Source: a virus
Direction: 5' to 3' (one strand)
DNA length: 22,823 bases
IMG/VR virus record: IMGVR_UViG_3300032304_000606
Span: 1-22,823 of that record
The translations under genes and the position numbers were made by a program. Positions 8,326 to 22,201 of this stretch are shown here, in pieces; within the stretch, counting starts at the first letter, position 1; every line of letters begins with the position of its first letter. The notes under the pieces are model-generated. The model was not told the origin of the DNA and did not search any database. It was given only the letters and a program-made list of their open reading frames with translations.

Positions 8326-8326
8326 T

Positions 8327-9259
8327 ATGAAACTTAGCGAACTTGTTGCATACCGTAATCAGCTAGATGCGTTGTCTAGTGTGCCTGCATTAAAAACTGC
8401 CAATATTGAGTTGGATAAAGTTTTACATCTAGTAAGTACACAACCAGAATTAATGACATTGTTCACTCACGATCTTAATAATCAATATGCCGACATACAA
8501 CAAGTATTTGCTAAATTTGAAGATAATTTAAACAATTTAAAATCTCAATTAGCTCAGCAAATTGCACAGGCCGAACGTCCTTGGTTCCAAGAAAGTTATA
8601 CCTTGTATGAAGGTGAGCTGATGCAGGGCGCCAAGTCTATACTTGAGTTGAGAAAACCCAATACTCTAGGTACTGAACCATTTCAAGACCGATTAAGTCA
8701 ATATGCTAACTGGAAATATTCAGCATTGATCATTCGTCCAGGATTGGAAACATTTATTGAAAACATGGTGGCATATGATCCTCTCTACTTGGTAGATTTG
8801 AGTCATGATTACTTAACTCCAGCTATGAACAAGTTTAATGAACAATATCAAAATCGGTTAAGACCTTATGTTGTTAGTGAAGCACTAGATCGAGACATTC
8901 TAGCAAAAATTCCCAATAATCAATTTGGCATGTGTTTAGCTTACAATTATTTTAATTTCAGACCATTTGAAATTCTTAAAAAATATCTAACAGAAATATA
9001 TCAAAAACTCAAACCCGGAGGCATCCTAGCATTTACATTCAATGACTGCGATAGACCTAGTGCTGTTAGGCTGGTTGAAAACCATTATTGTTGCTATACT
9101 CCTGGATACCTGGTTCAAGAATTGGCTATCTCTATGGGTTACGAAATTGTCTACTCCTGGAACGATCCAGGACCAACTACCTGGTTGGAATTAAAGAAAC
9201 CTGGAGAACTGACCAGTCTTAAAGGTGGGCAAACTTTGGCAAAAATAGTTCCAAAATAA
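8327..9259 (+). CDS. SAM-dependent methyltransferase-like protein with N-terminal coil
   Basis: 310 residues from the ATG one nt after the polymerase stop; the frame reads further upstream, but only inside the polymerase gene. Residues about 20-90 are helical and probably coiled coil (heptad-like Leu/Ile spacing, many Gln). The second half resembles a class I methyltransferase: DPLYLVDLS would be the SAM-binding strand, and LKPGGILAFTFND is the typical late strand and turn. The SAM-binding glycine loop is not well preserved, so activity is uncertain. The substrate is unknown. Its place between polymerase and clamp suggests DNA or the replication machinery (inference), but sugar and protein methyltransferases of this build are also common in phages. 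Confidence 0.6.
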   Translation: MKLSELVAYRNQLDALSSVPALKTANIELDKVLHLVSTQPELMTLFTHDLNNQYADIQQVFAKFEDNLNNLKSQLAQQIAQAERPWFQESYTLYEGELMQGAKSILELRKPNTLGTEPFQDRLSQYANWKYSALIIRPGLETFIENMVAYDPLYLVDLSHDYLTPAMNKFNEQYQNRLRPYVVSEALDRDILAKIPNNQFGMCLAYNYFNFRPFEILKKYLTEIYQKLKPGGILAFTFNDCDRPSAVRLVENHYCCYTPGYLVQELAISMGYEIVYSWNDPGPTTWLELKKPGELTSLKGGQTLAKIVPK

Positions 9260-9319: not shown

Positions 9320-10042
9320 ATGAAAGATCACTTACTAGACTTAGTAGAACACACTTACGACCTAGGTTGTATTGACCTAATCAAGATCACCGGCGACGAT
9401 AAGTCAACAGCGATCAACGGATTGGCCGAGGACCGTAGTGTTATTGTTGACGGTGCTTTTGCTGGCCCAGTAGCAGACTTTATTGGCACGTTTGGTATGC
9501 CAAATTTGAGTAAGCTCAAGGTATTGTTGAATCTGCAGCCCTACAAAGAAAATGCCAAACTTGCTATTACACGCAAGGATACAGGTGCATTGGATCAACT
9601 TACATTTGAAAATGCTGAAGGCGACTTTAAAAATAGTTATCGCTTTATGGCCACCGAAATCATCAACGAGAAATTGAAAAACGTCAAGATGAAACCAGTT
9701 ACATGGCACATTGAGTTCGAACCTTCTGTAGCCGCTATTCAAAGATTAAAAATGCAGGCGGCTGCTAATGCCGAAGAAGTTAACTTCAAGGCAAGAACAG
9801 ACGGCAAAGATTTGAAATTTTTCTTTGGTGATCATTCAACCCATGCAGGTAACTTTGTATTCCAACATGATGTAGGTGGCACACTCAAACGTGAATGGTC
9901 TTGGCCAGTTAAGACTGTGATTAGTATTTTAGATCTAACCGGTGACAAAGTTATGCGTATCAGTGATGATGGCATTGCTGAAATTACTGTAGATTCAGGA
10001 TTGGCTACTTATAGCTTTAAACTTCCAGCACAAAGCAAGTGA
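9320..10042 (+). CDS. Sliding clamp, T4 gp45-like DNA polymerase processivity factor
   Basis: 240 residues (T4 gp45 has 228). The clamp is a trimeric ring that tethers the DNA polymerase to DNA; in T4 it also activates late transcription. I base the call on length, position downstream of a gp43-type polymerase, and a mixed alpha/beta pattern in two halves: an N-terminal lid-like DLIKITGDD..TAINGLAEDRSVIV, and a C-terminal FKARTDGKDLKFFFGDHS with a closing VDSGLATYSFKLPAQ. No single motif proves it, because clamps are poorly conserved. It has a strong ribosome site (GAGGAG) and its own promoter. Its TGA overlaps the GTG of dpdA (GTGA), so the two are probably made together. Confidence 0.75.
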   Translation: MKDHLLDLVEHTYDLGCIDLIKITGDDKSTAINGLAEDRSVIVDGAFAGPVADFIGTFGMPNLSKLKVLLNLQPYKENAKLAITRKDTGALDQLTFENAEGDFKNSYRFMATEIINEKLKNVKMKPVTWHIEFEPSVAAIQRLKMQAAANAEEVNFKARTDGKDLKFFFGDHSTHAGNFVFQHDVGGTLKREWSWPVKTVISILDLTGDKVMRISDDGIAEITVDSGLATYSFKLPAQSK

Positions 10043-11664
10043 TTGAACAAGACAACCTAACAGCCAAGCAAAAAGATTACGCTGTATTCTTGCCAGCTAT
10101 TAGTGGCTTCTATGCTACATTTATTGGCAAACAACGTGATCCTGTTGCAGGTCCGTATGTAGATCTGGCTCGTATGCCTGCAGGAATTCCAGATATGGAA
10201 CAAATGAATTGGCTCAACAGTCAGAAAGGATTGTTTCCTTATAAGTGGTCGCTTTACTCTGGTGGGCATGCTAACTTGGATTTAAACAAGCAGGACTGGT
10301 CAGAAGACATGGTTCGCAATCGTGAACCTGGCACACTCATGTTGGGCGACTCTGGAGGATTTCAGATTGCCAAAGGTCTATGGGAAGGCGATTGGAAAGC
10401 AAACTCAGGTTGCCCAAAGGCCCAGAAAAAACGTGATGCTGTTTTAAAGTGGTTAGATGGTGTTGCTGATTATGGCATGATTCTTGATATTCCGACTTGG
10501 GTTATTCATGATAAGAAAGCCAGTGCCGCTTGCCAAATTACCACACTACAAGAAGCAGTAGACGCCACCAAGTACAACAACGATTACTTTATGAAACACC
10601 GCAAGGGTGTTGCCAATGGAGGAGCCAAGTTCTTAAATGTACTACAGGGTGCCAATCATGCTGATGCAGATCGTTGGTATGAACTAATGAAAGACTATTG
10701 TAATCCTGCGGTGTATCCAGACACACACTTTAACGGCTGGAGCATGGGCGGACAGAACATGTGCGATGTGCATTTAGTACTACGCAGATTAGTAGCATTA
10801 CGTCACGACGGCCTGCTCAAAGAAGGAGTTCACGATTGGATGCACTTCTTAGGCACAAGTAAACTAGAATGGGCAGTATTATTAACTGACATTCAACGTG
10901 CTGTACGTAAGTATGTTAATCCTGCATTTACCATCAGCTTTGACTGTGCCAGTCCATTCTTAGCCACTGCTAATGGACAAGTGTACCACCACATTGATTT
11001 GCCACACAATGAAAAGTGGTGCTATCGTATGAGTCCTATTGTGGACGACAAGAAGTTTAGCACAGACACAAGATCATATCGTGATGGTGTGTTGGCCGAG
11101 GGCTTTGTTAAACACTTTGATGAAAGCCCAATCAGCAAGCATTTAAAGATGAAAGATATCTGCATCTACAAACCAGGTGTGCGTAAAACAGATGCTGAAC
11201 TAAACGGTGAAACATTTGATCCTAATAACCTGACACACTTCCATACTGCGCCAGATCTAAACAAGATTGGTAAAAATGGCAAAACAAGTTGGGATAGTTT
11301 CAGCTATGCCTTGCTAATGGGTCATAATGTTTGGATGCACTTGGAAGCAGTACAACGTGCTAATCGTGAATATGACAACGGTTCGTGGCCTGCTATGATG
11401 TGGAATCAAAATGGTGATCATGCTCGCTTCAAAGATATTGTGGACGCTATCTTTGCTACCACAGATCGTGCTGAGGCTGAAGCCATTATTGAATCGTATG
11501 ACCGTTATTGGATGGACATTGTAGGCACTCGTGGCTTCAAAGGCAAAAAGGCCAAGAATGCCATGAGCATGTTTAACAATTTATTTGAAGTAGAGGACGA
11601 TGGCGTTGACAGTGACGATATTGATTTGGATGAAAATAAACTAGACGAGTTGGAGGCTCAATGA
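10039..11664 (+). CDS. dpdA: DpdA-like DNA guanine transglycosylase (7-deazaguanine insertion)
   Basis: 541 residues, resembling tRNA-guanine transglycosylase (TGT). Visible signatures are LG-D104-SGGFQ (general acid and base pocket), VL-Q203-GAN, G233-WSMGG, HFLGTSK, and F-D302-CASPF carrying the probable nucleophilic Asp. The TGT zinc site (CxCxxC) is absent, as expected for DpdA, which swaps guanine in DNA for preQ0 or a derivative. With folE and queD in the same window this supports a DNA-modification role over tRNA. An acidic tail (EVEDDGVDSDDIDLDEN) ends the protein. It starts at a GTG overlapping the clamp stop codon with no good Shine-Dalgarno, so it depends on coupled translation. 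QueE and QueC are not present in the window. Confidence 0.87.
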   Translation: MIEQDNLTAKQKDYAVFLPAISGFYATFIGKQRDPVAGPYVDLARMPAGIPDMEQMNWLNSQKGLFPYKWSLYSGGHANLDLNKQDWSEDMVRNREPGTLMLGDSGGFQIAKGLWEGDWKANSGCPKAQKKRDAVLKWLDGVADYGMILDIPTWVIHDKKASAACQITTLQEAVDATKYNNDYFMKHRKGVANGGAKFLNVLQGANHADADRWYELMKDYCNPAVYPDTHFNGWSMGGQNMCDVHLVLRRLVALRHDGLLKEGVHDWMHFLGTSKLEWAVLLTDIQRAVRKYVNPAFTISFDCASPFLATANGQVYHHIDLPHNEKWCYRMSPIVDDKKFSTDTRSYRDGVLAEGFVKHFDESPISKHLKMKDICIYKPGVRKTDAELNGETFDPNNLTHFHTAPDLNKIGKNGKTSWDSFSYALLMGHNVWMHLEAVQRANREYDNGSWPAMMWNQNGDHARFKDIVDAIFATTDRAEAEAIIESYDRYWMDIVGTRGFKGKKAKNAMSMFNNLFEVEDDGVDSDDIDLDENKLDELEAQ

Positions 11665-11867
11665 TTGACCATTTACAAAATCGAGTACGGCATTTAGAAG
11701 AAGAACATGCTCAATTGAACAAGCGGATTGATGGTATAGAAAGCACTGGAGTGTTCGAAGATGCTACTTTAGAAGTTTTGAAGAAACAACGGTTGCATCT
11801 TAAAGATGAAATTGTTAAAATTAAACTTAAGATAGCATACGAATTGGGATTAAAAGAAAATGATTAG
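11661..11867 (+). CDS. Small DUF465/YdcH-like coiled-coil protein
   Basis: 68 residues, almost wholly helical. The ending with LKKQRLHLKDEIVKIK matches the pattern I know from DUF465 (YdcH-type) proteins, which are short antiparallel coils of unknown function. It overlaps the dpdA stop (ATGA) and has GGAGG 4 nt before its ATG. It is translated directly after DpdA and could be a small partner protein (inference). Confidence 0.65.
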   Translation: MIDHLQNRVRHLEEEHAQLNKRIDGIESTGVFEDATLEVLKKQRLHLKDEIVKIKLKIAYELGLKEND

Positions 11868-12378
11868 AGCAGGACATGATGATGTAAGTTTCTTTATAGG
11901 AACCGAAGTTGAACACACACCTGCATTTGGCTTGCGTACCTTGTTTGTAGTGGGTGTGCAGGATCCACAAATTGTTCTACAAGAGTTTGACAACAACAAT
12001 TGTGAGCATATCTACTTTGGTGCTAATCAAAGTTTTCCAGCACTAGATAAGAACGATGGCGAAGGCTGGCGAGATTGGGAGTGGATGGTTCGTAGTTGCT
12101 TAGAACAACGCCCTAACTACTGTACACTTGATTTAGATCATGCCCAAGCAGAAGGATTGTTAGAATCTAGTCTGGTTGAGTTCCATAACTTTATTCCAAT
12201 GATTAGCGTTAAACTTCCATACATTCGACAATTTGGATACAATGCAACTATCAAACTTGATGACAAAGATTTTGCCGCAACGAACCCAGGCGTCTGGTGC
12301 CACAGCCTACACGACTTACAAAAGCGTGAGGTGTTTACTGACTGGTCTAAATACACTAAAGACGAAGTAATACGATGA
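11860..12378 (+). CDS. Conserved unknown protein of the dpdA operon, 172 aa
   Basis: No named domain. It opens with FFIGTEVEHTPAFGLRTLFVVG and later has IYFGANQSF, CTLDLD and FIPMISVKLPYI; the ordered strands and acidic residues look like a small alpha/beta enzyme fold. From memory, close relatives exist in other T4-like phages of aquatic bacteria. It overlaps the coil gene by 8 nt and the next gene by 4 nt. It lacks the CxxxCxxC of QueE and the ATP pyrophosphatase loop of QueC, so it is not either missing pathway enzyme in recognisable form. A supporting role in base modification is only suggested by position. Confidence 0.75.
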   Translation: MIRAGHDDVSFFIGTEVEHTPAFGLRTLFVVGVQDPQIVLQEFDNNNCEHIYFGANQSFPALDKNDGEGWRDWEWMVRSCLEQRPNYCTLDLDHAQAEGLLESSLVEFHNFIPMISVKLPYIRQFGYNATIKLDDKDFAATNPGVWCHSLHDLQKREVFTDWSKYTKDEVIR

Positions 12379-12698
12379 AAAATTGGTTAAGACAACGACT
12401 GCTTCACTTTTTAATAGATACTGAAGATAGCAGGCCAACTCCTATTGCCAGAATCGGCCGAGGAAATATTAGTGTAACACTGGATGACGGACTATGTGAT
12501 GACAGCTCAAGTGGCATTGATCTTCCAGATCCTATCATCTTTAAGGTGCAGGCAGTGTCAGGTGGTACAATAGTAGAGTCTAGGTGGTATGACTACAAGA
12601 AAGACGAGAATCGTGTTAAACTGCATATTATTACTCAAGAAGAAAACTTATCTGAATCTATTGGTAAAATTGTAACTATGGAACTATTACAAAAATGA
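12375..12698 (+). CDS. Unknown 107-aa protein
   Basis: A short protein with a basic amphipathic start (MKNWLRQRLLHFLID) and then a beta-rich body with acidic stretches. No family is recognised. ATGA overlaps at both ends place it firmly inside the dpdA operon. It has no signal peptide and no clear membrane segment, though the first 15 residues could bind a membrane or a protein surface. Confidence 0.65.
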   Translation: MKNWLRQRLLHFLIDTEDSRPTPIARIGRGNISVTLDDGLCDDSSSGIDLPDPIIFKVQAVSGGTIVESRWYDYKKDENRVKLHIITQEENLSESIGKIVTMELLQK

Positions 12699-13144
12699 TA
12701 CAAGAACAACGTGAAACTATTGAACGTGTCAAAACAGCCGCACAACGGCAGATCTGGGTCACCTTCCGTAAGGAAGGCATTCATTGCTATCCAGCGGCTG
12801 CAACGGATCCAATGTTAAATACTAATGATGAATATAATGTTGCGTTCCTTGCTAGTCCTCACCGTCATATTTTCCATTTCAGGGTGTCAATCGATGTGTT
12901 CCACAACGACAGAGACATTGAGTTCATTCAGTTCAAACGATGGATCGAGTCGTTGTATAACGGTGCGAATACCGTTCTAGAACTAAACTATAAAAGTTGC
13001 GAGATGATCGCAGATGACTTATATATACAGATAGCAGGTCGCTATCCTGGTCGTGCTGTAGTAATTGAAGTGTCCGAAGACGGCGAGAACGGATGCTGCA
13101 TTAGTTATAACCTTACTCGTCCAACTCAATCAATTGTAATTTAA
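12695..13144 (+). CDS. Conserved unknown phage protein, 149 aa, His-rich core
   Basis: No function known to me. The core has GIHCYPAAATDP, FLASPHRHIFHFRV, DRDIEFIQFKRWIESLY and YPGRAVVIEVSEDGENG, a pattern I recall from many T4-like cyanophages and other aquatic phages. The H-R-H-x-F-H cluster and the nearby acidic residues could form a metal or catalytic site (inference). It overlaps the preceding gene by 4 nt. The next gene begins 10 nt later with its own ribosome site. Confidence 0.75.
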   Translation: MIQEQRETIERVKTAAQRQIWVTFRKEGIHCYPAAATDPMLNTNDEYNVAFLASPHRHIFHFRVSIDVFHNDRDIEFIQFKRWIESLYNGANTVLELNYKSCEMIADDLYIQIAGRYPGRAVVIEVSEDGENGCCISYNLTRPTQSIVI

Positions 13145-13154
13145 AGGAACTATC

Positions 13155-13382
13155 ATGGGCAAGCCCCAACATCGTGTAAACCCTAGAGCCACCCAGGCAT
13201 TTGAAGATTTATCACTGTACTTGGAATTCTGCGTAGACTACGGCTACAGGTATCGCGAAGAAGATCTGTACAACTTCAAGAGCTATGCATGGCAACAGTA
13301 CAACAAATTCACACAAGGCAAAAATGCCAAGAACATGTGGGATGAAGACGGACGCAGATTCTCAGGATATCGCCGTGCGTAA
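13155..13382 (+). CDS. Unknown 75-aa protein
   Basis: Basic at both ends and rich in Tyr (about one residue in nine), with a helical centre (FEDLSLYLEFCVDYGYRYREEDLYN). It has AAAGGAAC about 7 nt before the ATG. The next gene starts inside its 3' end. No family is recognised. Confidence 0.65.
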   Translation: MGKPQHRVNPRATQAFEDLSLYLEFCVDYGYRYREEDLYNFKSYAWQQYNKFTQGKNAKNMWDEDGRRFSGYRRA

Positions 13383-14577
13383 GTTATTCTACATGGGACT
13401 TGAGTCTTATGAAGCTCGCTACACTCTGCAACTGACCGAGTGGAATAAGCGTGTGTTTGATCGCCGTGAACTGGATGTAGTATATGTTCCAGGTTCTACC
13501 ATTGACAATACTCAAAGCATTAGTGTAGGGCAAGTGTTAGATGCACACGGTCGCAGTTACTTTAGTATGAGCCAAATGATGAATTTGGTTCAAATGATGC
13601 GTAATGGAGAAGTTACCAATGAAGATGTTATCTACTTTGAAGACATGTTTCAACCCGGTATTGAGAGCTTACCTTATATTCTCGATCAAGTCGATCCTGC
13701 TCAGCGTCCCCGTATTTTTGTACGCTGTCTTGCTCAGGCCATTGATCCGGATGACTTTGTTCATGTTTGGGGCATGGCAGAGTGGATGTCAACGTATGAA
13801 AAGATGGTTAACCAATTCGTAACAGGTGTGCTGGCTACTAACGAAGAGATGGTTGCCCATATGCGTATTGCCGGTTGGACTGCTCCAATCTATAATATTA
13901 GCGGGCTGGCATTTGGCAAAGCAGAAGTTCTAGAGCGTATAGGTGGCTCGCAAAATATAAAACCGTTTGACCATCGCAAGATGCGTGTGGGCTTTGCCGC
14001 AAGATTTGATCAAGAGAAGCAACCAGATTTTTACATGGACTTGATTGAAATGTATCATAATCAAGGACGGCACAATGATATAGAGTTTGCTATCTTCCAA
14101 GGTGGCCCGTTGCGTAGTAACAATCAACGGTATATTGAACGTGCTCGTCAGTTAGAGAGCGAAGGCAAACTTGTAATTTATGAGAACTTAAAGAAAAATG
14201 ATTACTATACTCTACTTAACGATACTCGTGTATTGTTCAATTGTGCTCTCCAGGACTGGGTCAGTAACACAGTGTCTGAAGCCGATACACTTGGAGCGAA
14301 TGTTTTATATCCTGCTTATCGTAGTTTCCCTGAAACTTTTGCTGATGACCCAAACAGACTTTACGTTCCCTGGTCAATAGATGATGCGTATCAAAAACTA
14401 GAAAACTTGCTTGACACACCGCATCACAATATGGGTTTGATCTCAGACTGGACTGATGGTACTGTGAATCGTATTGTAGATATATTGGAGGGTAAGGGTG
14501 AATCTTGGAATCGTGCAGGCAATCGTTATCGTGATCATGTGAGTCAAGCCAAGTATCACGTAAGAAAGATCAAATAA
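13375..14577 (+). CDS. Glycosyltransferase, GT-B-like, 400 aa
   Basis: I place the start at GTG 13375, which overlaps the previous gene by 8 nt and gives MRKLFYMGLESYEARYTLQL; ATG 13393 is the alternative. The sequence resembles a glycosyltransferase group found in T4-like cyanophages: an N-terminal Rossmann-like half with DVVYVPGSTID and EDVIYFEDMFQPGIESLPY, then a second half opening with MRVGFAARFDQEKQPDFYMDLIEMYH. The KLVIYENLKKNDYYTLLND....FNCALQDWVSNTVSEAD region corresponds to the donor-sugar site of GT-B enzymes, with an Asp/Glu-containing acceptor loop. Donor and acceptor are unknown. It is followed by an epimerase (1-nt overlap) and a DegT-like gene, so it belongs to a sugar set in the same operon as dpdA. 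Confidence 0.7.
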   Translation: MRKLFYMGLESYEARYTLQLTEWNKRVFDRRELDVVYVPGSTIDNTQSISVGQVLDAHGRSYFSMSQMMNLVQMMRNGEVTNEDVIYFEDMFQPGIESLPYILDQVDPAQRPRIFVRCLAQAIDPDDFVHVWGMAEWMSTYEKMVNQFVTGVLATNEEMVAHMRIAGWTAPIYNISGLAFGKAEVLERIGGSQNIKPFDHRKMRVGFAARFDQEKQPDFYMDLIEMYHNQGRHNDIEFAIFQGGPLRSNNQRYIERARQLESEGKLVIYENLKKNDYYTLLNDTRVLFNCALQDWVSNTVSEADTLGANVLYPAYRSFPETFADDPNRLYVPWSIDDAYQKLENLLDTPHHNMGLISDWTDGTVNRIVDILEGKGESWNRAGNRYRDHVSQAKYHVRKIK

Positions 14578-15530
14578 TGAAAGTAATGGTAACCGGTGCG
14601 GCCGGATACATCGGCGGCGAAACTGTATTAAAATTAGTAGATGCTGGGCATGAGGTGCTAGGCGTTGACCGTGTTATTCCAAGTAAACTCCTAGTTGAGT
14701 TGCCTAATACTTGGTGGCATACCGGAGACTTTGCTGGTGAAATTGGGTTAGAAACTATTAAGATGTTTGAGCCAGAGGCAATTATTCATTGCGCTGGTAC
14801 CAGTTTGGTTGGTCCGAGTATTAAAGATCCTAGAGAGTACTACAATAATAATTTTGTCAAAACAAAATGCTTGCTTAATTTTTTAATTGACAACAAATTA
14901 ACTCATATTAGATTTATTTTTAGTAGCAGTGCGGCCACATACGGCAATCCTATTATTACTCCGGTTCAGGAAGTTGATCCCACAGAACCAATCAGTCCAT
15001 ACGGTGAAAGCAAACTTATGATTGATTGGATGTTAAAACGATATGCTCACGCATATGGCATAGACTATGTAAGTTTTCGTTATTTCAATGCGTGTGGCGC
15101 TGATAGTCAAGCTCGTCATGGACAAGCACCAGGTGCTACTCATATAATTGCTCGTGTTTTAGAAAGCATTAAAGACGGAACAAACTTTACACTTTATGGC
15201 ACCGACTATTCTACCAGCGATGGTACTTGCGTTCGAGACTATATCCACGTAGAGGATCTAGCACAAGCACACATATTAGCAACAGATCGAACTATTCCAA
15301 GCGACGTCTATAATCTTGGAACAAACATTGGATATAGTAATCTTGATATAATACAAACGGCTGCTACTGTGACTAAAATTCCAGTCACTCATAAAAGTGG
15401 CCCAAAACGCAATGGCGATCCTGCTGTGCTTGTTGCTGATGCCGGTAAGTTTATAAAGGCCAGTGGCTGGCAACCACAGTTTAATTTAGAAGATATCGTT
15501 ACTCACGCTTGGGCATGGTATAACCAATGA
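14577..15530 (+). CDS. NAD-dependent sugar epimerase, GalE-like
   Basis: 317 residues of the extended short-chain dehydrogenase family. The NAD-binding motif G7-AAG-YIGG is at the N-terminus. The catalytic triad is seen as the Ser/Thr in FSSSAATYGNP and Y142-GES-K146. RYFNACGAD, the RVLES.K.G.NFTLYGTDY region and DYIHVEDLAQAHILA are typical of UDP-glucose 4-epimerase. The length is slightly below cellular GalE (about 338). It would interconvert UDP-sugars, probably feeding the glycosyltransferase directly upstream. It overlaps both neighbours by 1-4 nt. The exact sugar cannot be read from the sequence. Confidence 0.9.
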   Translation: MKVMVTGAAGYIGGETVLKLVDAGHEVLGVDRVIPSKLLVELPNTWWHTGDFAGEIGLETIKMFEPEAIIHCAGTSLVGPSIKDPREYYNNNFVKTKCLLNFLIDNKLTHIRFIFSSSAATYGNPIITPVQEVDPTEPISPYGESKLMIDWMLKRYAHAYGIDYVSFRYFNACGADSQARHGQAPGATHIIARVLESIKDGTNFTLYGTDYSTSDGTCVRDYIHVEDLAQAHILATDRTIPSDVYNLGTNIGYSNLDIIQTAATVTKIPVTHKSGPKRNGDPAVLVADAGKFIKASGWQPQFNLEDIVTHAWAWYNQ

Positions 15531-16105
15531 GTTTTAAGGCCTTATTTGATTTTGAATTAGCCTTGGCAGAATATACAGGTGCTCCATACGCGGTGTTAAC
15601 CGATGGGTGTACACATGCTATTGAATTGTGCATGCGATATGATCAAGTTAAACGTACTCGATTCTCTGCTTATACCTATCTTAGTGTTCCTATGTTAATG
15701 CACCATTTAGGAATTGAGTACGAGATGGTTACTGAAAAATGGACAGGCGAATATCAATTCTACGGAACTAGAATTTGGGACAGTGCCCGTAGATTAGAAC
15801 GCAATATGTACAATCCAGGAACCATGCAGTGCCTGAGCTTTGGTTGGACCAAGCCCTTGCAATTGGGCAAGATAGGTGCTATCTTGTTAGATGATGCGGA
15901 AGCGTACAAAAAATTTAGTAGGCAACGTGCAGATGGTAGAGATCTAAACATACCCTGGCAGGAAGAAACAGATCTTATACTTGGTTATCATTACTGTCCT
16001 ACACTAGAACTATGTGTGAAGGGCTTAGAATTATTATCTACTGTAGAACCAACAGCACAGCCTGGCATTTATCCTGATTGTAGAAATATTCCATTTTTCT
16101 ATTGA
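15527..16105 (+). CDS. Half-length DegT/DnrJ/EryC1-like aminotransferase
   Basis: 192 residues against about 370-390 for the family. It keeps the recognisable N-terminal landmarks: the LTDGCTHAIEL segment (PLP phosphate region), FSAYTYLSVP, the WDSARRLERN block (the usual E-D-A-A position), and SFGWT-K109-PLQLGKIGAI, where K109 would be the PLP lysine. The C-terminal small domain is missing, and the protein ends without a frameshift scar. It may be a real compact form, perhaps working as a dimer or as a carbohydrate-binding remnant. The TGA overlaps the -35 box of the folE promoter. The preceding epimerase stop is overlapped (ATGA), so it is the last gene of the long operon. Confidence 0.7.
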   Translation: MSFKALFDFELALAEYTGAPYAVLTDGCTHAIELCMRYDQVKRTRFSAYTYLSVPMLMHHLGIEYEMVTEKWTGEYQFYGTRIWDSARRLERNMYNPGTMQCLSFGWTKPLQLGKIGAILLDDAEAYKKFSRQRADGRDLNIPWQEETDLILGYHYCPTLELCVKGLELLSTVEPTAQPGIYPDCRNIPFFY

Positions 16106-16130
16106 CATAGACCTAAATAGTCTTTATAAT
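16102..16130 (+). promoter_or_regulatory. Perfect-consensus sigma70 promoter for folE
   Basis: -35 TTGACA (16102-16107), 17-bp spacer, -10 TATAAT (16125-16130), then AGTAAC. Both hexamers are consensus. The leader is about 45 nt and holds a small hairpin GGTC-6 nt-GACC at 16143-16156 before CGGAG (16166-16170) and the ATG at 16178. Confidence 0.85.
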
Positions 16131-16177
16131 AGTAACAAGACTGGTCATCCACGACCTTAATAACTCGGAGAAATTTA

Positions 16178-16990
16178 ATGCCTAAATATGTGTCACCTGA
16201 AGAACAAAAAATAGAAGATTTAAAATCACGAAAATATGCAGAAGAAGCACCGTATCATCCTGGGTACGAAGATGCCGCAATGAATGATAAAGGCTACGAA
16301 GAAAAGAACTTAGCAGATGCTATCCGCTTTAATATGAAGCGTGATAAGAAACGTTTTTGGGCCGGTGACAACATCAGCGACTACTTGCACGAAGGCGATA
16401 AAGAAATCTTAATCAACGAAGCTACAGAAGCGTTTGAACGGGTTCTAGATACGCTATTAATTGATCGTGAGAACGATCCAAATTCAAAAGGCACAGCACG
16501 CAGACTTGCTAAAATGTATTACAACGAAATTATGGGAGGTCGATATGATCCAGCACCAGATGCAACAGCTTTTCCAAATGATTCGGCGGATAGATATGAG
16601 GGTATGCTTGTTGTTCGTAGCGAATTGCGTTCTATGTGCAGTCATCATCATCAGCCTGTGTCTGGTGTTGCTTACATCGGAATCATCGCCGCTAATAAAC
16701 TTATTGGCCTGTCTAAATATACTCGGATCGCTCAGTGGTGTGCTCGTCGTGGCACACTTCAAGAAGAACTATGTAACGACATTGCAAGAGAAATCATGCG
16801 AGCAACAGAAAGTGAAAACGTAGGTGTGTATATTCAGGCCACACACGGTTGCTGTGAAAATCGCGGCATTATGGCACACTCTAGCCTAACACAGACCACA
16901 GTACTTCGAGGTAGCTTTCAAACAGACCCAGGAACTAAAAAAGAGTTCATGGACAATATCAAACTACAACAGGACTTTGCGCCACGATGA
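16178..16990 (+). CDS. folE: GTP cyclohydrolase I
   Basis: Converts GTP to dihydroneopterin triphosphate, the first step toward 7-deazaguanines (and folate). 270 residues against 222 in E. coli; the extra length is a charged N-terminal extension of about 50 residues with no domain I recognise. Zinc and active-site residues are present: M-C154-S-H-H157 (E. coli C110 and H113) and H223-G-C225...R229-G (E. coli H179, C181, R185). The stretches YIGIIAANKLIGLSK and ARR.TLQEEL are typical of FolE. It has its own strong promoter and a good ribosome site. Combined with dpdA and queD it points to DNA modification rather than folate supply. Confidence 0.95.
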   Translation: MPKYVSPEEQKIEDLKSRKYAEEAPYHPGYEDAAMNDKGYEEKNLADAIRFNMKRDKKRFWAGDNISDYLHEGDKEILINEATEAFERVLDTLLIDRENDPNSKGTARRLAKMYYNEIMGGRYDPAPDATAFPNDSADRYEGMLVVRSELRSMCSHHHQPVSGVAYIGIIAANKLIGLSKYTRIAQWCARRGTLQEELCNDIAREIMRATESENVGVYIQATHGCCENRGIMAHSSLTQTTVLRGSFQTDPGTKKEFMDNIKLQQDFAPR

Positions 16991-17154
16991 ACGTAGATCC
17001 AAGATGCTGTGGTTCAGGAACCTGCATTATTAATGCCGAAGGCGAATGTTGGTGCGGTCAGAAGTGGGACGGTAAAAAAATGTGCCAACCGTATTTTATA
17101 AACGAATCCGGCATGAAAGTTAATGCGGTAACAGGAGAGCTTATAAATGATTAA
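16987..17154 (+). CDS. Small cysteine-rich protein, 55 aa
   Basis: Starts at an ATG overlapping the folE stop (ATGA) and runs 55 codons to TAA at 17152. The first half carries six cysteines in the order CC....C.......CWC.........C, with RCCGSGTC and GECWCGQKWDG. These probably bind metal or form a compact knot. I recall similar short Cys-rich proteins in betaproteobacteria, which would hint at the host, but I could not verify this. AGGAC lies about 11 nt upstream. It overlaps the next gene by 8 nt. Confidence 0.7.
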   Translation: MNVDPRCCGSGTCIINAEGECWCGQKWDGKKMCQPYFINESGMKVNAVTGELIND

Positions 17155-17329
17155 AAAATTTAGAATTTGGTTGGCCCGTAAGATCTTGGGCGACTACTGT
17201 CCTTGCTTTCAGATGGGCTATCATTCAATGGTAAACTTTCAACAACGTAGCGCAGACGCATTAGCAAAACACAAAGAGAGAAAGGCAAACAATGAACAAT
17301 CTACACATCCTGGCCAACCAGGCTATTGA
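17147..17329 (+). CDS. Unknown 60-aa protein
   Basis: A basic N-terminal helix (MIKKFRIWLARKIL) precedes a CPC pair and a polar, charged tail. AGGAGAG lies about 8 nt before the ATG, a strong ribosome site. It overlaps the Cys-rich gene upstream and the next gene downstream. No family is recognised; the basic amphipathic start could touch the membrane or nucleic acid. Confidence 0.6.
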   Translation: MIKKFRIWLARKILGDYCPCFQMGYHSMVNFQQRSADALAKHKERKANNEQSTHPGQPGY

Positions 17330-17516
17330 ACGAGCAAAAAATCTACAAGAGTTTGCTGTGTTTCGCGACATGGAAGACATTGTGTTTTGTGGTAGCCCAC
17401 TACCATATACCTTAAACCATGTCATGGGCGAAAAGGTAGAAATCACTGTACCGGCCATCAACCAAGTTGAAGCCGAACAGCGTGTAGATGCTTGGTTACG
17501 AGGGCAAAGAGCCTAA
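17292..17516 (+). CDS. Unknown 74-aa protein
   Basis: Overlaps the preceding gene by 38 nt, with GAGAGAAAGG upstream as a plausible ribosome site. The sequence has a helical start (ILANQAIERAKNLQEFAVF) and ends with an amphipathic helix (INQVEAEQRVDAWLRGQ). There are no catalytic motifs. It is the last gene of the folE unit; a new promoter follows within 33 nt. Confidence 0.6.
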   Translation: MNNLHILANQAIERAKNLQEFAVFRDMEDIVFCGSPLPYTLNHVMGEKVEITVPAINQVEAEQRVDAWLRGQRA

Positions 17517-17548
17517 AATTCTGTTGTAAAAAAGCTACACCTGGCTGT

Positions 17549-17577
17549 TTGACTCAAAAAGAGTGATACGCTATAAT
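17549..17577 (+). promoter_or_regulatory. sigma70-type promoter for the lipoprotein gene
   Basis: -35 TTGACT (17549-17554), 17-bp spacer, -10 TATAAT (17572-17577), then AGTAGC. TTGGAG (17597-17602) precedes the ATG at 17608. Confidence 0.8.
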
Positions 17578-17607
17578 AGTAGCATATCGTAAATTCTTGG
17601 AGACAAT

Positions 17608-20061
17608 ATGCGTAAGGTACGGGTGTTTAATAGGACTGCTATAGCTCTAGCTGTTTCAACCGTTTTCCTATTATCGGCTTGTGCCGGCGGTGGCGGCGGC
17701 GCAAACAATCCAGGTAACAATGTGCCGCCTACACAAGGTAGTGGCCCGTCAGTTCCTTATGCCACTCCGGTTCGAGTTGGATCTATTACTCCTATAAACA
17801 GTGCAGTATATGAATACGACTCTAGTGCATTATACTCTGAAAATCTCGTTGGCACCGGCGAATCATTAATTACCGCAGGTCGTTCTGGCACAACCAACGG
17901 CGGAAGTTATCCAACCTATAATTTAAACATTTTTGATTGGGAAAATGGCCAATTAGTAAACAAAACCAATCGGTGGTTTTCTGGTACAGACAATGTTATC
18001 CTAGGCACCGAACCTAGCCTAAAATTTGGCGACCTTAATGGCGACGGCAAGCGTGATATGTATGTGGCGCCAAACACAGATAATGGCGGCACTGCTGGCT
18101 CCGGTTGGTTATTCCTTAATAATGGATCTAGTTTTACCAGAGTTAATTTAGGACTTAACATTAACGGACATGATAGTGCTATTTACGATATTAACAGAGA
18201 TGGTGTTGATGATATCTTTACTACTGGTAGTAAGGTTGTGTTTGGATCACGTATTAACAATTTTGTTGCACACACAGTGTCAGGACAGGATTATGGCGGT
18301 GCAGCAGGTTCGGTTGCTATTGCAGACTTTATGGGTAATAATACCGGCACAGTCATCCTTACTGACCAAAATAATTTCCAGGCCGGTGGTACTAGATTGT
18401 ACAGTTGGGCTATGACAGATGGTGGAAGGCCCACTTTAGATTTTGAATTAACAAAGATTAGTGCGCTGCCGTCATCGAGATTTTTTCTTCCTAAATGGGC
18501 GTCTAATGGATTTAGTGGCAGTCATGATTATCGATCGCTGGCATTTGACTTTGATAACTCTGGATTGACCAGTGCAGTTATTTTTAGTAGGCCTGTAATG
18601 GCCAATGGTACTTGGCCCGAGTTTAATGAGATTCAATTCTTAAAAAATCGAGGGGGTGGCACCTTTATTGATGTAACAGACACCACCCTAGTGGGCTACA
18701 ACACCGCATCTTCGTCGCAACATTATAACCCCAAGATTATGGATGTAAATAGCGACGGACTATTGGACATAGTATTAACTGGAACCAGTTGGAGTGGCAC
18801 TACCGGCGCTCAAGTACTGATTCATACCACCGAGCACAAGTATGTATCCAGCTATGCCGCTGTTATTGATGCATTTGTTGGTCAATCTGCTAATCTTGAA
18901 AAAGCAATTAATGCCAGTGCCGCATCGGGTGCCAATGGAATTGCGTTTGTCAAGGGGGCCGACGGTAGTATGTATCTTGCTACTGCTATTAGTTACACTG
19001 GCAATGGTACACAACAAAAAGCCATTTACCTTAGTAAGTTAGGAACAAACACCACTACAGCACAAGCAACTGTTAATTCTATTAAACAAGTATGGCCATG
19101 GATGAGCGATGCGCAGGTCAATACTGTATTGGCACAAAGCTCAACCACATGGTTTGGTATGAATGTATTAGACCCGGACAAGGCCTTTCAGCCCATTGGT
19201 AACTTGGGCATACCGTTATCTACCGGTGGCGTCGCACCTATACGGGGTTACATTACAGGCTTAAACATTGGTGACGGTGCGGCTGTGGTCACTGACAGCG
19301 TGGGCAGATCCTTTAACACAAACATCAAGCCCATGAACATATCTGCTATTAATGCTTTTGGATACAATACACAGCACAACGATCAGTACGAACTGACTAG
19401 TCATGCTGAATACTTGGTCAATGGATCATTAACAACTGTCAACGGCATGCGAGTGGGCGCTGACTTTGCAGGTCGCGATGCCAACGGGATGGGTCTAAAC
19501 AAGCCCACTCAATACACGGTGGGGGTACCCGGCTGGTATCGTAAAGGTTCTTGGAGCATGGGCACACAATATACCTATTTGAACACTAATCCGTGGATGG
19601 CATTTGGTGGCGCTTGGGGAGAGGTAAACGGATCCGGTATCATGGACAATGTGGTCACTTATCGTAAAAATGGATTTTCGGCTCAGGCCAGTGCTATGCA
19701 TGTGACTACTAACATTACACCAGGTTTGGTCACTAGAGTTGACAACATGTGGGGCACCTGGGCTGAAACTGGTTATAGATTTGGTCAGGCAAAAGAAAAT
19801 GGTGATCTTGGCCTGTATGCCGGTATCAAGCCTGTGGTGTTGTCCGGTAACGTCCAGGCCAAAATACCCACAGCGGTTGACAGTGCAGGCAATATAATGT
19901 ACACTAACAAAAAGTTGATGGTACAGAATCAGACTACTGGTTATATTCGAGCACTATATACCAATCAACTTACTAAGGATACTCAGTATAGATTTAGTGC
20001 AGTTGCCACACAACAAGGACAGTACCGAATCATGAATGAATTTAGATGGTGGTTAAATTAA
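17608..20061 (+). CDS. Secreted lipoprotein with FG-GAP/VCBS repeats and C-terminal beta domain
   Basis: 817 residues. The N-terminus is a lipoprotein signal: basic start, hydrophobic core, lipobox L22-S-A-C25, then Ala at +2 (outer-membrane sorting) and a Gly-rich linker. Residues about 140-390 hold calcium-binding FG-GAP/VCBS repeats: D142-LNGDGKRD, D194-INRDGVDD, D379-VNSDGLLD and a weaker D314-FDNSG, as in beta-propellers. From about residue 530 the protein is rich in Gly, Asn, Tyr and Trp with alternating strands, and ends YRIMNEFRWWLN, close to an outer-membrane beta-barrel end signal. I recall this C-terminal module behind S8 protease domains in phage proteins; here a propeller takes that place. 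It has its own promoter. It could be a host-surface receptor blocker, an adhesin or a virion protein. Confidence 0.8.
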   Translation: MRKVRVFNRTAIALAVSTVFLLSACAGGGGGANNPGNNVPPTQGSGPSVPYATPVRVGSITPINSAVYEYDSSALYSENLVGTGESLITAGRSGTTNGGSYPTYNLNIFDWENGQLVNKTNRWFSGTDNVILGTEPSLKFGDLNGDGKRDMYVAPNTDNGGTAGSGWLFLNNGSSFTRVNLGLNINGHDSAIYDINRDGVDDIFTTGSKVVFGSRINNFVAHTVSGQDYGGAAGSVAIADFMGNNTGTVILTDQNNFQAGGTRLYSWAMTDGGRPTLDFELTKISALPSSRFFLPKWASNGFSGSHDYRSLAFDFDNSGLTSAVIFSRPVMANGTWPEFNEIQFLKNRGGGTFIDVTDTTLVGYNTASSSQHYNPKIMDVNSDGLLDIVLTGTSWSGTTGAQVLIHTTEHKYVSSYAAVIDAFVGQSANLEKAINASAASGANGIAFVKGADGSMYLATAISYTGNGTQQKAIYLSKLGTNTTTAQATVNSIKQVWPWMSDAQVNTVLAQSSTTWFGMNVLDPDKAFQPIGNLGIPLSTGGVAPIRGYITGLNIGDGAAVVTDSVGRSFNTNIKPMNISAINAFGYNTQHNDQYELTSHAEYLVNGSLTTVNGMRVGADFAGRDANGMGLNKPTQYTVGVPGWYRKGSWSMGTQYTYLNTNPWMAFGGAWGEVNGSGIMDNVVTYRKNGFSAQASAMHVTTNITPGLVTRVDNMWGTWAETGYRFGQAKENGDLGLYAGIKPVVLSGNVQAKIPTAVDSAGNIMYTNKKLMVQNQTTGYIRALYTNQLTKDTQYRFSAVATQQGQYRIMNEFRWWLN

Positions 20062-20062
20062 T

Positions 20063-20455
20063 ATGAAAAAAAGAACCAATCAAGTATTCGATAATATTCC
20101 AGACTGCATCGAGGACAGTACCGCACCTTGGACCGAACTAGTTGAGGAAGATTACCACGTGAAAGTATTCCGTGACCTATATCCATGCACGCCAGGCCAC
20201 TTGTTATTTGTTCCAAAATACAATACTGTTGGTGTGCTAATGGATGCTATAGAAGATGCTGTACGCCACGGCCAAGCTCAAGTAGAACAAGGAGAATGGA
20301 ATGGATTCAATATTGGTCTTAACTATGGAGCGGCTGCTGGACAAACCGTTGCGTGGCCGCATGTGCATCTTATTCCACGCAGAACAGGCGATGTTGAGGA
20401 TCCAGTGGGTGGTGTGCGAAATACTATACCGGGCAAAGGTAACTATAAAAAGTAA
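20063..20455 (+). CDS. HIT-family nucleotide hydrolase/transferase
   Basis: 130 residues, normal for a HIT protein. It starts 1 nt after the lipoprotein stop. The HIT signature is QTVA-W98-P-H100-V-H102-LIPRR; the first His of the usual H-x-H-x-H triad is Trp, while the middle (nucleophilic) and last His remain. DLYPCTPGHLLFVPK earlier is the typical HIT strand pair, and the tail GDVEDPVGGVRNTIPGKGNY also fits. HIT proteins hydrolyse or transfer nucleotide groups such as ApnA or nucleotidyl-sugars. The substrate is unknown; a role in nucleotide or nucleotide-sugar turnover would suit the surrounding genes. Confidence 0.85.
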   Translation: MKKRTNQVFDNIPDCIEDSTAPWTELVEEDYHVKVFRDLYPCTPGHLLFVPKYNTVGVLMDAIEDAVRHGQAQVEQGEWNGFNIGLNYGAAAGQTVAWPHVHLIPRRTGDVEDPVGGVRNTIPGKGNYKK

Positions 20456-20481
20456 TAAATTATAACCCATGTTTGCCCTAT

Positions 20482-20489
20482 TATAAATA
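20482..20489 (+). promoter_or_regulatory. T4-type late promoter box (TATAAATA)
   Basis: Exact match to the T4 late consensus in the 56-nt gap before the 74-aa gene, ending 22 nt before its ATG. No good sigma70 -35 element accompanies it. Confidence 0.55.
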
Positions 20490-20511
20490 AATTTATTAAG
20501 AAAGAAAACTC

Positions 20512-20736
20512 ATGAGCCAAAAACGAACCTTTGTGTTAGAATTAAAAAATGGTCAAGCTATCACACTTGAATTCTCAGCAATTGACGCTACTGATAATTG
20601 TTTGTGGCAAATGTTTGCCACTACCGAGGCTCTCAACACCGTGCAACAGTTAATTAGTACTGGATCGACTGTTGAAACTAGGTCAGCTAGAAAAACACTG
20701 CCAGAAAAATCTGTAGTAACTAAAAAGAAAAAGTGA
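20512..20736 (+). CDS. Unknown 74-aa protein
   Basis: Begins with a short beta hairpin-like segment (RTFVLELKNGQAITLEF), continues with a helix, and ends in a run of lysines (VVTKKKK). The basic tail suggests nucleic-acid contact. The only ribosome site is a weak AAGAAAG. It lies alone behind a late promoter box and before the queD promoter. No family is recognised. Confidence 0.6.
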   Translation: MSQKRTFVLELKNGQAITLEFSAIDATDNCLWQMFATTEALNTVQQLISTGSTVETRSARKTLPEKSVVTKKKK

Positions 20737-20765
20737 TCAACCAGCGGTCTTTGGTGTCATCCCGC

Positions 20766-20794
20766 TTTACAAACTCTGCCGCCTATGCTATAAT
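20766..20794 (+). promoter_or_regulatory. sigma70-type promoter for queD
   Basis: -35 TTTACA (20766-20771), 17-bp spacer, -10 TATAAT (20789-20794). The leader is short, with TAGGAG (20801-20806) before the ATG at 20814. Confidence 0.75.
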
Positions 20795-20813
20795 CTAACA
20801 TAGGAGAATTACA

Positions 20814-21338
20814 ATGGCAAAATATCTTTCAACAAAAACATACGGCACAGATCGTGGACTTTCATGCTGTTTCCGTCAGTGGCGCAGTACACACAGCCAT
20901 TGCAGTCTATTACATGGATACTCAATTGGTATCAAATTAATTTTTGAATCAGAGACCTTAGATGATCGCAATTGGGTTATGGATTTTGGCGGACTCAAGG
21001 CATTCAAAGAATGGAGCGACTATGTGTTTGACCATACTTTGGTTGTTGCCGAGGACGACCCTCACTTGAAGTTGTTCGAAACTATGGCTGGACTTGGACT
21101 ACAAGACCAAGGCGGTATTTGTGATCTTAGAATTGTAGAAGCTGTGGGCTGTGAAAAATTCAGCGAGCTTGCATACAAAGAAATGAATTATATTCTCAAA
21201 ACATATCAACAAGGGCAAGAATATACATTGCCCAACGGTAAAACATTCACTGCACGTTATCCAGTGGGTCAAGGAGTACGATTGCGTAGTGTAGAAGTAT
21301 TCGAACACGCCGGCAACAGTGCTGTATATGAAGGGTAG
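20814..21338 (+). CDS. queD: QueD-like 6-carboxytetrahydropterin synthase
   Basis: 174 residues; E. coli QueD has 121. The QueD/PTPS fold converts dihydroneopterin triphosphate to 6-carboxytetrahydropterin, the second step to preQ0. Visible residues are H27 or H29 (first zinc ligand), C30 (catalytic Cys), L-H34-G-Y36, WVMDFGGLKAF and the F-D73-H74 pair. The usual LHGH is LHGY, so the third zinc ligand is Tyr unless the neighbouring His replaces it. The extra length is mainly an insertion before the C-terminal region (YTLPNGKTFTARYP). It has its own promoter and a strong ribosome site, and shares promoter style with folE although 4.6 kb away. Confidence 0.88.
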   Translation: MAKYLSTKTYGTDRGLSCCFRQWRSTHSHCSLLHGYSIGIKLIFESETLDDRNWVMDFGGLKAFKEWSDYVFDHTLVVAEDDPHLKLFETMAGLGLQDQGGICDLRIVEAVGCEKFSELAYKEMNYILKTYQQGQEYTLPNGKTFTARYPVGQGVRLRSVEVFEHAGNSAVYEG

Positions 21339-21379: not shown

Positions 21380-22201
21380 ATGTCAAATGAATACAAAATA
21401 GCCATATTGTTACCCACACGAGGCCGCACAGAAGCCTTGGATCGCAGTCTAATTGGATTGTTGGAACAAGTATCAGACTTAGATAGTATACAAGTGCTAC
21501 TAGGACTGGACTCCGATGACACAGTTGGTATATCTCATTTCCAAGATGAGTTACAACCTAAATTAGACAACTTAGGTGTGGATTATACTGCCATGATATT
21601 TAAGCCCATGGGGTATGGTCGCCTTAATGAATATATCAATGAACTAGCTAAAAATTCGTCTGCGGATTGGATGTTTTTTTGGAATGATGATGCCGTAATG
21701 GAAACTCAAGGATGGGATAAAAAAATTACTGAACACACTGGTGAGTTTAAATTGTTAGCGGTACATACGCATCACGATCATCCTTACAGCATATTTCCAA
21801 TTGTGCCCAGAGCATGGTTGGATGTTATTGGACATTTAAGTTTACATTCAATGACCGATGCTTGGTTAAGTCAAATTGCTTACTGTGTAGATATCTGGGA
21901 ACGCATTGATGTCGACGTACTACACGATCGAGCCGACTTGACTGGCAACAACAAAGACGACACGTATAAGAATAGAGAGTTACTAGAAGGTAATCCTAAC
22001 AATCCTAGAGATTTCCATCATCCTAAAATGGCATCAACTCGTATGAATGAATGTGACAAACTCTCAGACTACCTGAAGAGTCAAGGCAATGATTCTGATT
22101 GGTGGGAACGTGTCAAGACTGGAAAACAAGATCCTTGGGCCAAACTCAAAGAAAATGATGTTAACTCCCAAATGCGTCAGTTCCAGATAAAAGTACAATA
22201 G
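21380..22201 (+). CDS. GT-A glycosyltransferase (family 2-like)
   Basis: 273 residues. The N-terminus (KIAILLPTRGRTEALDRSL) is the nucleotide-binding strand and loop of GT-A enzymes. DSDDTV and the later W-N102-D103-D104-A stand where the DxD-type metal and sugar-nucleotide site is expected. The C-terminal third is polar and holds RADLTGNNKDDTYKN, followed by a helical tail. Donor and acceptor are unknown. There is no Shine-Dalgarno, and an exact late promoter box sits 7 nt upstream, so late expression is likely. It is followed after 2 nt by a RmlB-like gene, which may supply its sugar. Virion or surface glycosylation late in infection would fit. Confidence 0.75.
   Translation: MSNEYKIAILLPTRGRTEALDRSLIGLLEQVSDLDSIQVLLGLDSDDTVGISHFQDELQPKLDNLGVDYTAMIFKPMGYGRLNEYINELAKNSSADWMFFWNDDAVMETQGWDKKITEHTGEFKLLAVHTHHDHPYSIFPIVPRAWLDVIGHLSLHSMTDAWLSQIAYCVDIWERIDVDVLHDRADLTGNNKDDTYKNRELLEGNPNNPRDFHHPKMASTRMNECDKLSDYLKSQGNDSDWWERVKTGKQDPWAKLKENDVNSQMRQFQIKVQ

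Follow-up and report, generated by a model that had tools for sequence, protein, structure and literature searches.

Can a phage make a modified guanine for its DNA when genes for two steps of the pathway seem to be missing? This question is raised by a 22,823-base stretch of DNA (hereafter the window), which is the whole of IMG/VR record IMGVR_UViG_3300032304_000606 and a fragment of a larger phage genome. It comes from a jumbo phage, a bacterial virus of very large size that occurs in water. The modification of phage DNA with 7-deazaguanines, and the resulting protection from restriction, are established (PMC6884629). A preliminary description of the window had recognized the pathway enzymes FolE, QueD and DpdA, found neither QueE nor QueC, and regarded the final base as beyond prediction. 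Its core call of a 7-deazaguanine DNA-modification pathway was upheld by the fold and catalytic Asp of DpdA and by the pathway genes near it in phages, whether related or not. From the computed genes, folds, catalytic residues, synteny and QueC absence, we consider it probable, with some reserve, that the window holds most of a jumbo-phage module of this kind, belonging to a branch that dispenses with QueC. The genes concerned lie on the plus strand, as do all long genes of the region, and they include three that had not been listed before, namely the phrog_17812 gene, the adjoining glycosyltransferase and the epimerase.

10039 to 11664, plus strand: DpdA-like DNA guanine transglycosylase, 541 amino acids, with the fold and catalytic Asp of a tRNA-guanine transglycosylase (TGT)
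12695 to 13144, plus strand: second QueD-fold paralog, phrog_17812, from profile and AlphaFold2 (AF2) fold, with the zinc His triad kept
13375 to 14577, plus strand: GT-B glycosyltransferase GT1, by homology, 400 amino acids from a conserved GTG start placed by alignment
14577 to 15530, plus strand: UDP-glucose 4-epimerase GalE (TIGR01179, 297 bits, cut-off 262)
16178 to 16990, plus strand: FolE, GTP cyclohydrolase I (PF01227, 134.7 bits against a cut-off of 27, 3e-39; phrog_2197)
20814 to 21338, plus strand: QueD-like protein, HGY variant, by alignment (PF01242, 47.7 bits, 2e-12; phrog_2389)

Because the window is a fragment, genes missing from it mean little. The preliminary description had proposed a wider search for QueE and QueC, and this search, run in relatives, detected QueE, with QueC only in Vibrio phage 2.275.O. 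The window DpdA matched at least 600 stretches in IMG/VR, and it had relatives in 13 phage records (the PA5oct group, Sinorhizobium phage Phosso and Vibrio phage 2.275.O). The window itself contained no QueE (no phrog_2076 match) and no QueC. However, a strong QueE match (phrog_2076, E value below 1e-38) was present in 15 of the 18 relatives searched. Among these was G015, the closest relative among the matches listed, with a DpdA 96% identical to that of the window. There, QueE lies outside the part equivalent to the window, some 5 kb past its end, so the lack of QueE, true of the window, is an edge effect and not a property of the phage family. QueE was also detected in all nine further phages with phrog_17812.

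The reported absence of QueC was borne out. Among 38 viral records with the window-type DpdA (19 including the window, 9 further contigs of up to 353 kb, and 10 more), the QueC model TIGR00364 scored above its cut-off in one, Vibrio phage 2.275.O being the sole exception. The 37 negative records included contigs of 317-353 kb and the complete genomes of PA5oct (287 kb) and Phosso (469 kb). QueC is carried by 317 phage records overall. One bacterial metagenome-assembled genome (MAG), G035, had a single QueC, on a different contig from its DpdA locus. Weak QueC matches appeared in G002, G003 and G015, and the one that was read, in G015, proved to be the NAD synthase NadE. The lack of QueC in this phage family is genuine.

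A radical-SAM gene of the window (4239-5303) was considered as QueE and rejected, since it encodes a SPASM/twitch protein and the window has no phrog_2076 match. The 200-320 kb contigs of relatives had up to nine radical-SAM matches each, unusually many for a phage. In G015, the NadE gene (L220:13096-13857) adjoins QueE and could relate to NAD-depleting defences. The G015 QueE (L220:14072-14935) has, by sequence reading, an apparent insertion between its second and third cluster-binding cysteines (CNFTC...GCDS).

The absence of QueC goes together with phrog_17812. This family was found in 26 of 50,697 phage records, representing 11 lineages, or 12 with that of the window, and QueE was present in 12 of 12 and QueC in none. 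In the loci that were read, phrog_17812 lay near folE, queE or both. Its AF2 model had a predicted local distance difference test score (pLDDT) of 88. All 14 Foldseek matches at E<=1e-3 were QueD/PTPS structures, VIA alignment to QueD/PTPS reached Z scores of up to 11.6, and the family profile matched QueD at E=2e-5, with controls at 0.06 to 0.7; a PDB sequence search gave nothing useful. On the strength of the model, phrog_17812 is predicted to have a QueD-type T-fold. Its invariant residues are H30, H56, H58, E103 and E128. It retains three His equivalent to the zinc triad and a C-terminal Glu, and it lacks the catalytic Cys and the Asp-His dyad. In Vibrio phage Bakedbeans (L118:11251-12402) and Chryseobacterium phage MA9V-3 (L123:11392-12273) it forms the C-terminal part of a longer protein. 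We regard it as a candidate enzyme acting on 7-carboxy-7-deazaguanine (CDG). Cui et al. 2023 reportedly found phage DNA with dCDG and dDG, added to the DpdA subfamilies and predicted a decarboxylase of CDG, named DpdL, with which phrog_17812 may be identical.

As had been described, DpdA carries TGT active-site signatures and no TGT zinc motif. Its motifs are DSGG (D104) and FDCASP at 301-306 (D302), with no CxCxxC; E. coli Tgt, run alongside, has all three (DSGG, FDCASP-type and CxCxxC). None of 230 family members has CxCxxC and all 230 have Asp at the second catalytic position, while an alignment of 12 diverse members, down to 30% identity, shows no variation at D104, D150 or D302. CxCxxC was also absent from the other phage proteins compared. 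An AF2 model built from 29 relatives (mean pLDDT 72, predicted template modelling score, pTM, 0.77) gave five Foldseek matches at E<=1e-3, all of them TGTs (E 5e-6 to 4e-4). VIA structure alignments to TGTs gave Z 15-17 over about 300 residues with a root-mean-square deviation of 4.4-5.7, QTRT1 reaching Z 17.2. Its gene context suggests that DNA is the substrate.

By sequence, this DpdA stands apart. No family in Pfam (TGT included), PHROGs, NCBIfam or PADLOC matched it, and a PDB sequence-profile search found nothing significant. Its profile gave no firm link to single sequences of 9g, K575, X1 or E. coli Tgt, the best being ACP17 at probability 32. DpdA2 proteins (Vibrio phage K575, nt-1 type, with relatives in ACP17, X1 and BUCT-ZZ01) share the TGT-type DSGG and Asp motifs, and those of ACP17, X1 and BUCT-ZZ01 likewise lie near phrog_17812 and a glycosyltransferase, without QueC. 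However, the comparison with DpdA subgroups, which the preliminary description had also proposed, gave no family-level match to DpdA2. Hidden Markov model (HMM) E values against nt-1-type proteins were 0.005 at best in an 11-sequence set, whereas K575-type DpdA2 proteins match each other at 1e-45 or better. The window family had no match in K575, X1, ACP17 or BUCT-ZZ01 and none at family level to the 9g DpdA. In a comparison aimed at DpdA3 and DpdA4 it had none in Campylobacter phage CP220 or HCTV-1, whose transglycosylase genes were not pinned down. The window protein is thus TGT-like and DpdA-like but forms its own sequence group, because it has the TGT fold and catalytic Asp and yet no family-level match to DpdA2-type or 9g DpdA. 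As a side observation, 19 of 38 QueE loci, unrelated phages included, had a gene resembling xanthine/guanine phosphoribosyltransferases no more than 2.5 kb from QueE (L220:15138-15635 in G015; L121:7468-7929 in BUCT-ZZ01). Guanine freed by DpdA could be salvaged by its product.

Of the other two enzymes named in the preliminary description, FolE stands and QueD has to be qualified. FolE scored below the NCBIfam FolE equivalog cut-offs (133 against 202); the gene occurs in 389 phage records. The supposed QueD reached 34.1 bits against a cut-off of 89 for the NCBIfam equivalog and has lost two of three zinc ligands. In place of the AHR...HGH triad, the AHR-type His is replaced by Phe and HGH by HGY. 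From the alignment, it retains the catalytic Cys (HC-x3-HGY), the Asp-His dyad (FDHT) and the anchoring Glu (VFEH). HGY is also found in the window group, ACP17, BUCT-ZZ01, phiST, MA9V-3 and RHph_I1_18, where the AHR-type His is gone as well except in RHph_I1_18, which has another context at that site, and in X1 and Phosso. HGH is found in the QueC-bearing phages 2.275.O, 9g and HCTV-1, and in Bakedbeans. The HGY protein of PA5oct retains the first His. Because of this variation among phages, the QueD-side step may be performed by the HGY variant, by a pair of QueD-fold proteins or by the host QueD.

These elements suggest the following route. FolE would open GTP, and the QueD-type protein together with QueE, encoded just outside the window, would make CDG. 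The phrog_17812 protein would then act on the CDG branch, in place of the QueC of other phages, and the TGT-fold DpdA of its own subfamily would put the base so formed into DNA in exchange for guanine. In the window lineage, the GT-B glycosyltransferase may decorate this base with a UDP-sugar supplied through GalE. An unglycosylated product would be dCDG, or plain 7-deazaguanine if phrog_17812 decarboxylates. The likely role would be protection from host restriction. The earlier view of the final base was thus too pessimistic: it is probably derived from CDG rather than from preQ0, and perhaps glycosylated.

The pathway of phages 9g, CAjan and Rosebush (PMC6884629) shares FolE, a QueD-type protein, QueE and a TGT-like DpdA with presumed insertion by base exchange. 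The window module differs in having no QueC, Gat-QueC or QueF, an extra QueD-fold paralog, a dedicated glycosyltransferase with GalE, and a DpdA of another sequence group. Bipper-type mycobacteriophages, in which only queC is lacking and CDG was considered as the base, share the QueC absence (PMC6884629), but no Mycobacterium phage was among the 26 phrog_17812 records. We see in the module a QueC-less variant of an established modification, with a chance of a new base class. The dCDG/dDG phages of Cui et al. 2023 are likewise said to combine FolE, QueD, QueE and DpdA without QueC; we know of no glycosyltransferase in that pathway.

How firmly does GT1 belong here? The window protein scored 22.4 bits against PF00534, below the cut-off of 26.4, and a PDB sequence search gave nothing useful. 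However, its ortholog in Synechococcus phage BUCT-ZZ01 (697 bits), which adjoins phrog_17812 there, scored 26.5 and 28.3 bits against two Pfam families, above the cut-off of each, and the X1 homolog scored 45.5. The GT1 profile had a single match each in X1, ACP17, PA5oct, Phosso and BUCT-ZZ01, in every case the module gene, lying beside or next but one to phrog_17812; the Phosso match was weak (E 0.007). It had no match in 9g, K575, CP220, HCTV-1 or 2.275.O, and thus none in the QueC-bearing phages tested. Searched with the window sequence, the 50,697 phage records gave two matches at E<=1e-3, both in phrog_17812 phages. When the BUCT-ZZ01 enzyme was the query, the IMG/VR loci with full context contained window-type DpdA in 54 of 54 cases, phrog_17812 in 53, the epimerase in 53 and QueC in none. 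Because of this locking to DpdA and phrog_17812 loci, the profile matches and its conservation, GT1 belongs to the module with good probability. Its acceptor would be a DNA base. The addition of a sugar to the inserted base is a serious possibility that falls short of the balance of probability. We tentatively propose, while thinking it somewhat less probable than its negation, that the DNA of an abundant jumbo-phage group, and of a few cultured phages unrelated to it, contains glycosylated 7-deazaguanine, with CDG diverted by the QueD-fold paralog, inserted by DpdA and decorated by GT-B and GalE. If the sugar step is real, it would resemble T4 DNA glucosylation, in which a glycosyltransferase acts on a modified DNA base. 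The base in T4 is hydroxymethylcytosine, whereas here it would be a 7-deazaguanine, and the likeness would be one of function.

The same QueC-less pathway could end in an undecorated base, dCDG, or dDG if phrog_17812 is a CDG decarboxylase, with the glycosyltransferase and GalE acting on a virion protein, a surface sugar or another DNA base. This is possible, though we hold it doubtful. No homologous glycosyltransferase was detected in six of the 12 phrog_17812 lineages (phiST, MA9V-3, RHph_I1_18, Ahp1, D479 and Bakedbeans), so that the sugar does not belong to the core chemistry. Unrelated glycosyltransferases are also frequent in large phages, and the window has a second one, GT2, at 21380-22201. 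The locking of GT1 to its loci, and its presence in five other phage lineages, speak against an unconnected role. In divergent phages, moreover, GT1 is 65-74% identical where DpdA is 32-41%, unlike a gene for surface decoration.

Alternatively, the host QueC might convert phage CDG to preQ0, which DpdA would insert, giving dPreQ0 as in CAjan or Rosebush. The queuosine pathway is present in most known phage hosts (PMC6884629), and the MAG with the binned relative has its own QueC. The suggestion in the preliminary description that the host supplies intermediates is possible in this sense, but less likely than a rerouted pathway. A contribution from the host leaves unexplained why no phrog_17812 lineage has QueC while 317 phage records do, and it gives the QueD paralog no purpose. 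We consider it unlikely.

The two QueD-fold proteins could also form one composite enzyme, in which the HGY protein provides the Cys and Asp-His dyad and phrog_17812 the zinc site, so that an ordinary QueD step is followed by a host QueC product or dCDG. Active sites of QueD/PTPS enzymes lie between subunits, and the residue losses of the two proteins are complementary. However, the QueD that accompanies phrog_17812 in Bakedbeans is of the HGH type, no HGY protein was seen in Ahp1 or D479, and PA5oct encodes another member of the PTPS family in addition to its HGY protein. The pairing is therefore not obligatory, a strict rule being broken by Bakedbeans and PA5oct, and a composite enzyme seems quite improbable. 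A role of these enzymes in making queuosine for the tRNA of host or phage is very improbable indeed: DpdA does have a TGT fold, and phages with pathway genes but no DpdA have been suggested to boost Q (PMC6884629), but this DpdA has neither the tRNA-TGT zinc motif nor a Pfam TGT match, and in 78-80 of 80 loci it goes with a clamp-like gene that neighbours DNA polymerase.

Several points weigh against the QueC-independent, decorated module that we favour. The structure model of DpdA is of middling confidence, and in half of the phrog_17812 lineages no homologous glycosyltransferase was detected. Since many of the IMG/VR loci stem from phages related to each other, only the five or six named lineages count as independent. 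QueC is common in hosts, so that a preQ0 product may still arise, and a decarboxylated base would offer a sugar no obvious handle at C7. In the literature searched, we found no report of a modified nucleoside measured in these phages and no paper linking PA5oct with queuosine. Neither was a report of glycosylated 7-deazaguanine in DNA found, which is weak evidence of novelty because coverage was partial and most papers lay outside it.

The surroundings of the pathway genes contain further conserved features.

9320 to 10042, plus strand: sliding-clamp-like gene, phrog_12062, sharing 4 bases with the start of DpdA and probably not encoding a pathway enzyme
11860 to 12378, plus strand: conserved 172-residue protein of no known family, in 77 of 80 DpdA loci
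13155 to 13382, plus strand: small conserved open reading frame (ORF), 75 amino acids, in 58 of 80 DpdA loci and 73 of 79 phrog_17812 loci
15527 to 16105, plus strand: short DegT/DnrJ-type aminotransferase-like protein, 192 amino acids, roughly half as long as usual for its family (PF01041, 33.8 bits, above cut-off)
16102 to 16130, plus strand: promoter-like site upstream of FolE, 12/12 sigma-70-like (TTGACA-17-TATAAT)
20766 to 20794, plus strand: promoter-like site upstream of the QueD-like gene, 11/12 with an extended -10

The pathway had been said to begin at 9320, but that position opens the clamp-like gene, and DpdA begins at 10039. The clamp-like gene was present in all 80 DpdA loci; its homolog in Phosso carries a sliding-clamp annotation, and the 9g DpdA likewise adjoins a clamp gene. 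From the clamp-like gene through the aminotransferase, the genes overlap or abut with almost no gaps. The earlier division into three transcription units is possible and agrees with the sigma-70-like sites before FolE and QueD, but promoter-like sites overall were no commoner than in shuffles. Homologs of the 172-residue protein lie between FolE and DpdA2 in Acidovorax phage ACP17 and about 28 kb from DpdA in PA5oct. In marine relatives (MAG contigs) the order is compact, running clamp, DpdA, 172-residue gene, phrog_17812, glycosyltransferase, FolE and QueE, and the glycosyltransferase is of the PA5oct/ACP17 type.

A methyltransferase-like ORF (8255-9259) lies between DNA polymerase and the clamp-like gene and recurred in 78 of 80 loci, with only about 44% identity. 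Between FolE and QueD, an 817-residue protein with a lipoprotein-like N-terminus (17608-20061) had homologs in 12 of 80 loci. A cytidine/deoxycytidylate-deaminase-like protein (PF00383; 2745-3383) was present in 29 of 80.

For this phage family, what had been stray pathway genes become a defined module, which is widespread (at least 600 matches in each scan) and present in cultured phages. The genes called QueD in such phages are zinc-site variants, and proteins so far labelled hypothetical gain candidate functions. The module predicts a QueC bypass in every phage that has phrog_17812, and in those that also have the adjoining glycosyltransferase, the guanine-type base may carry a sugar.

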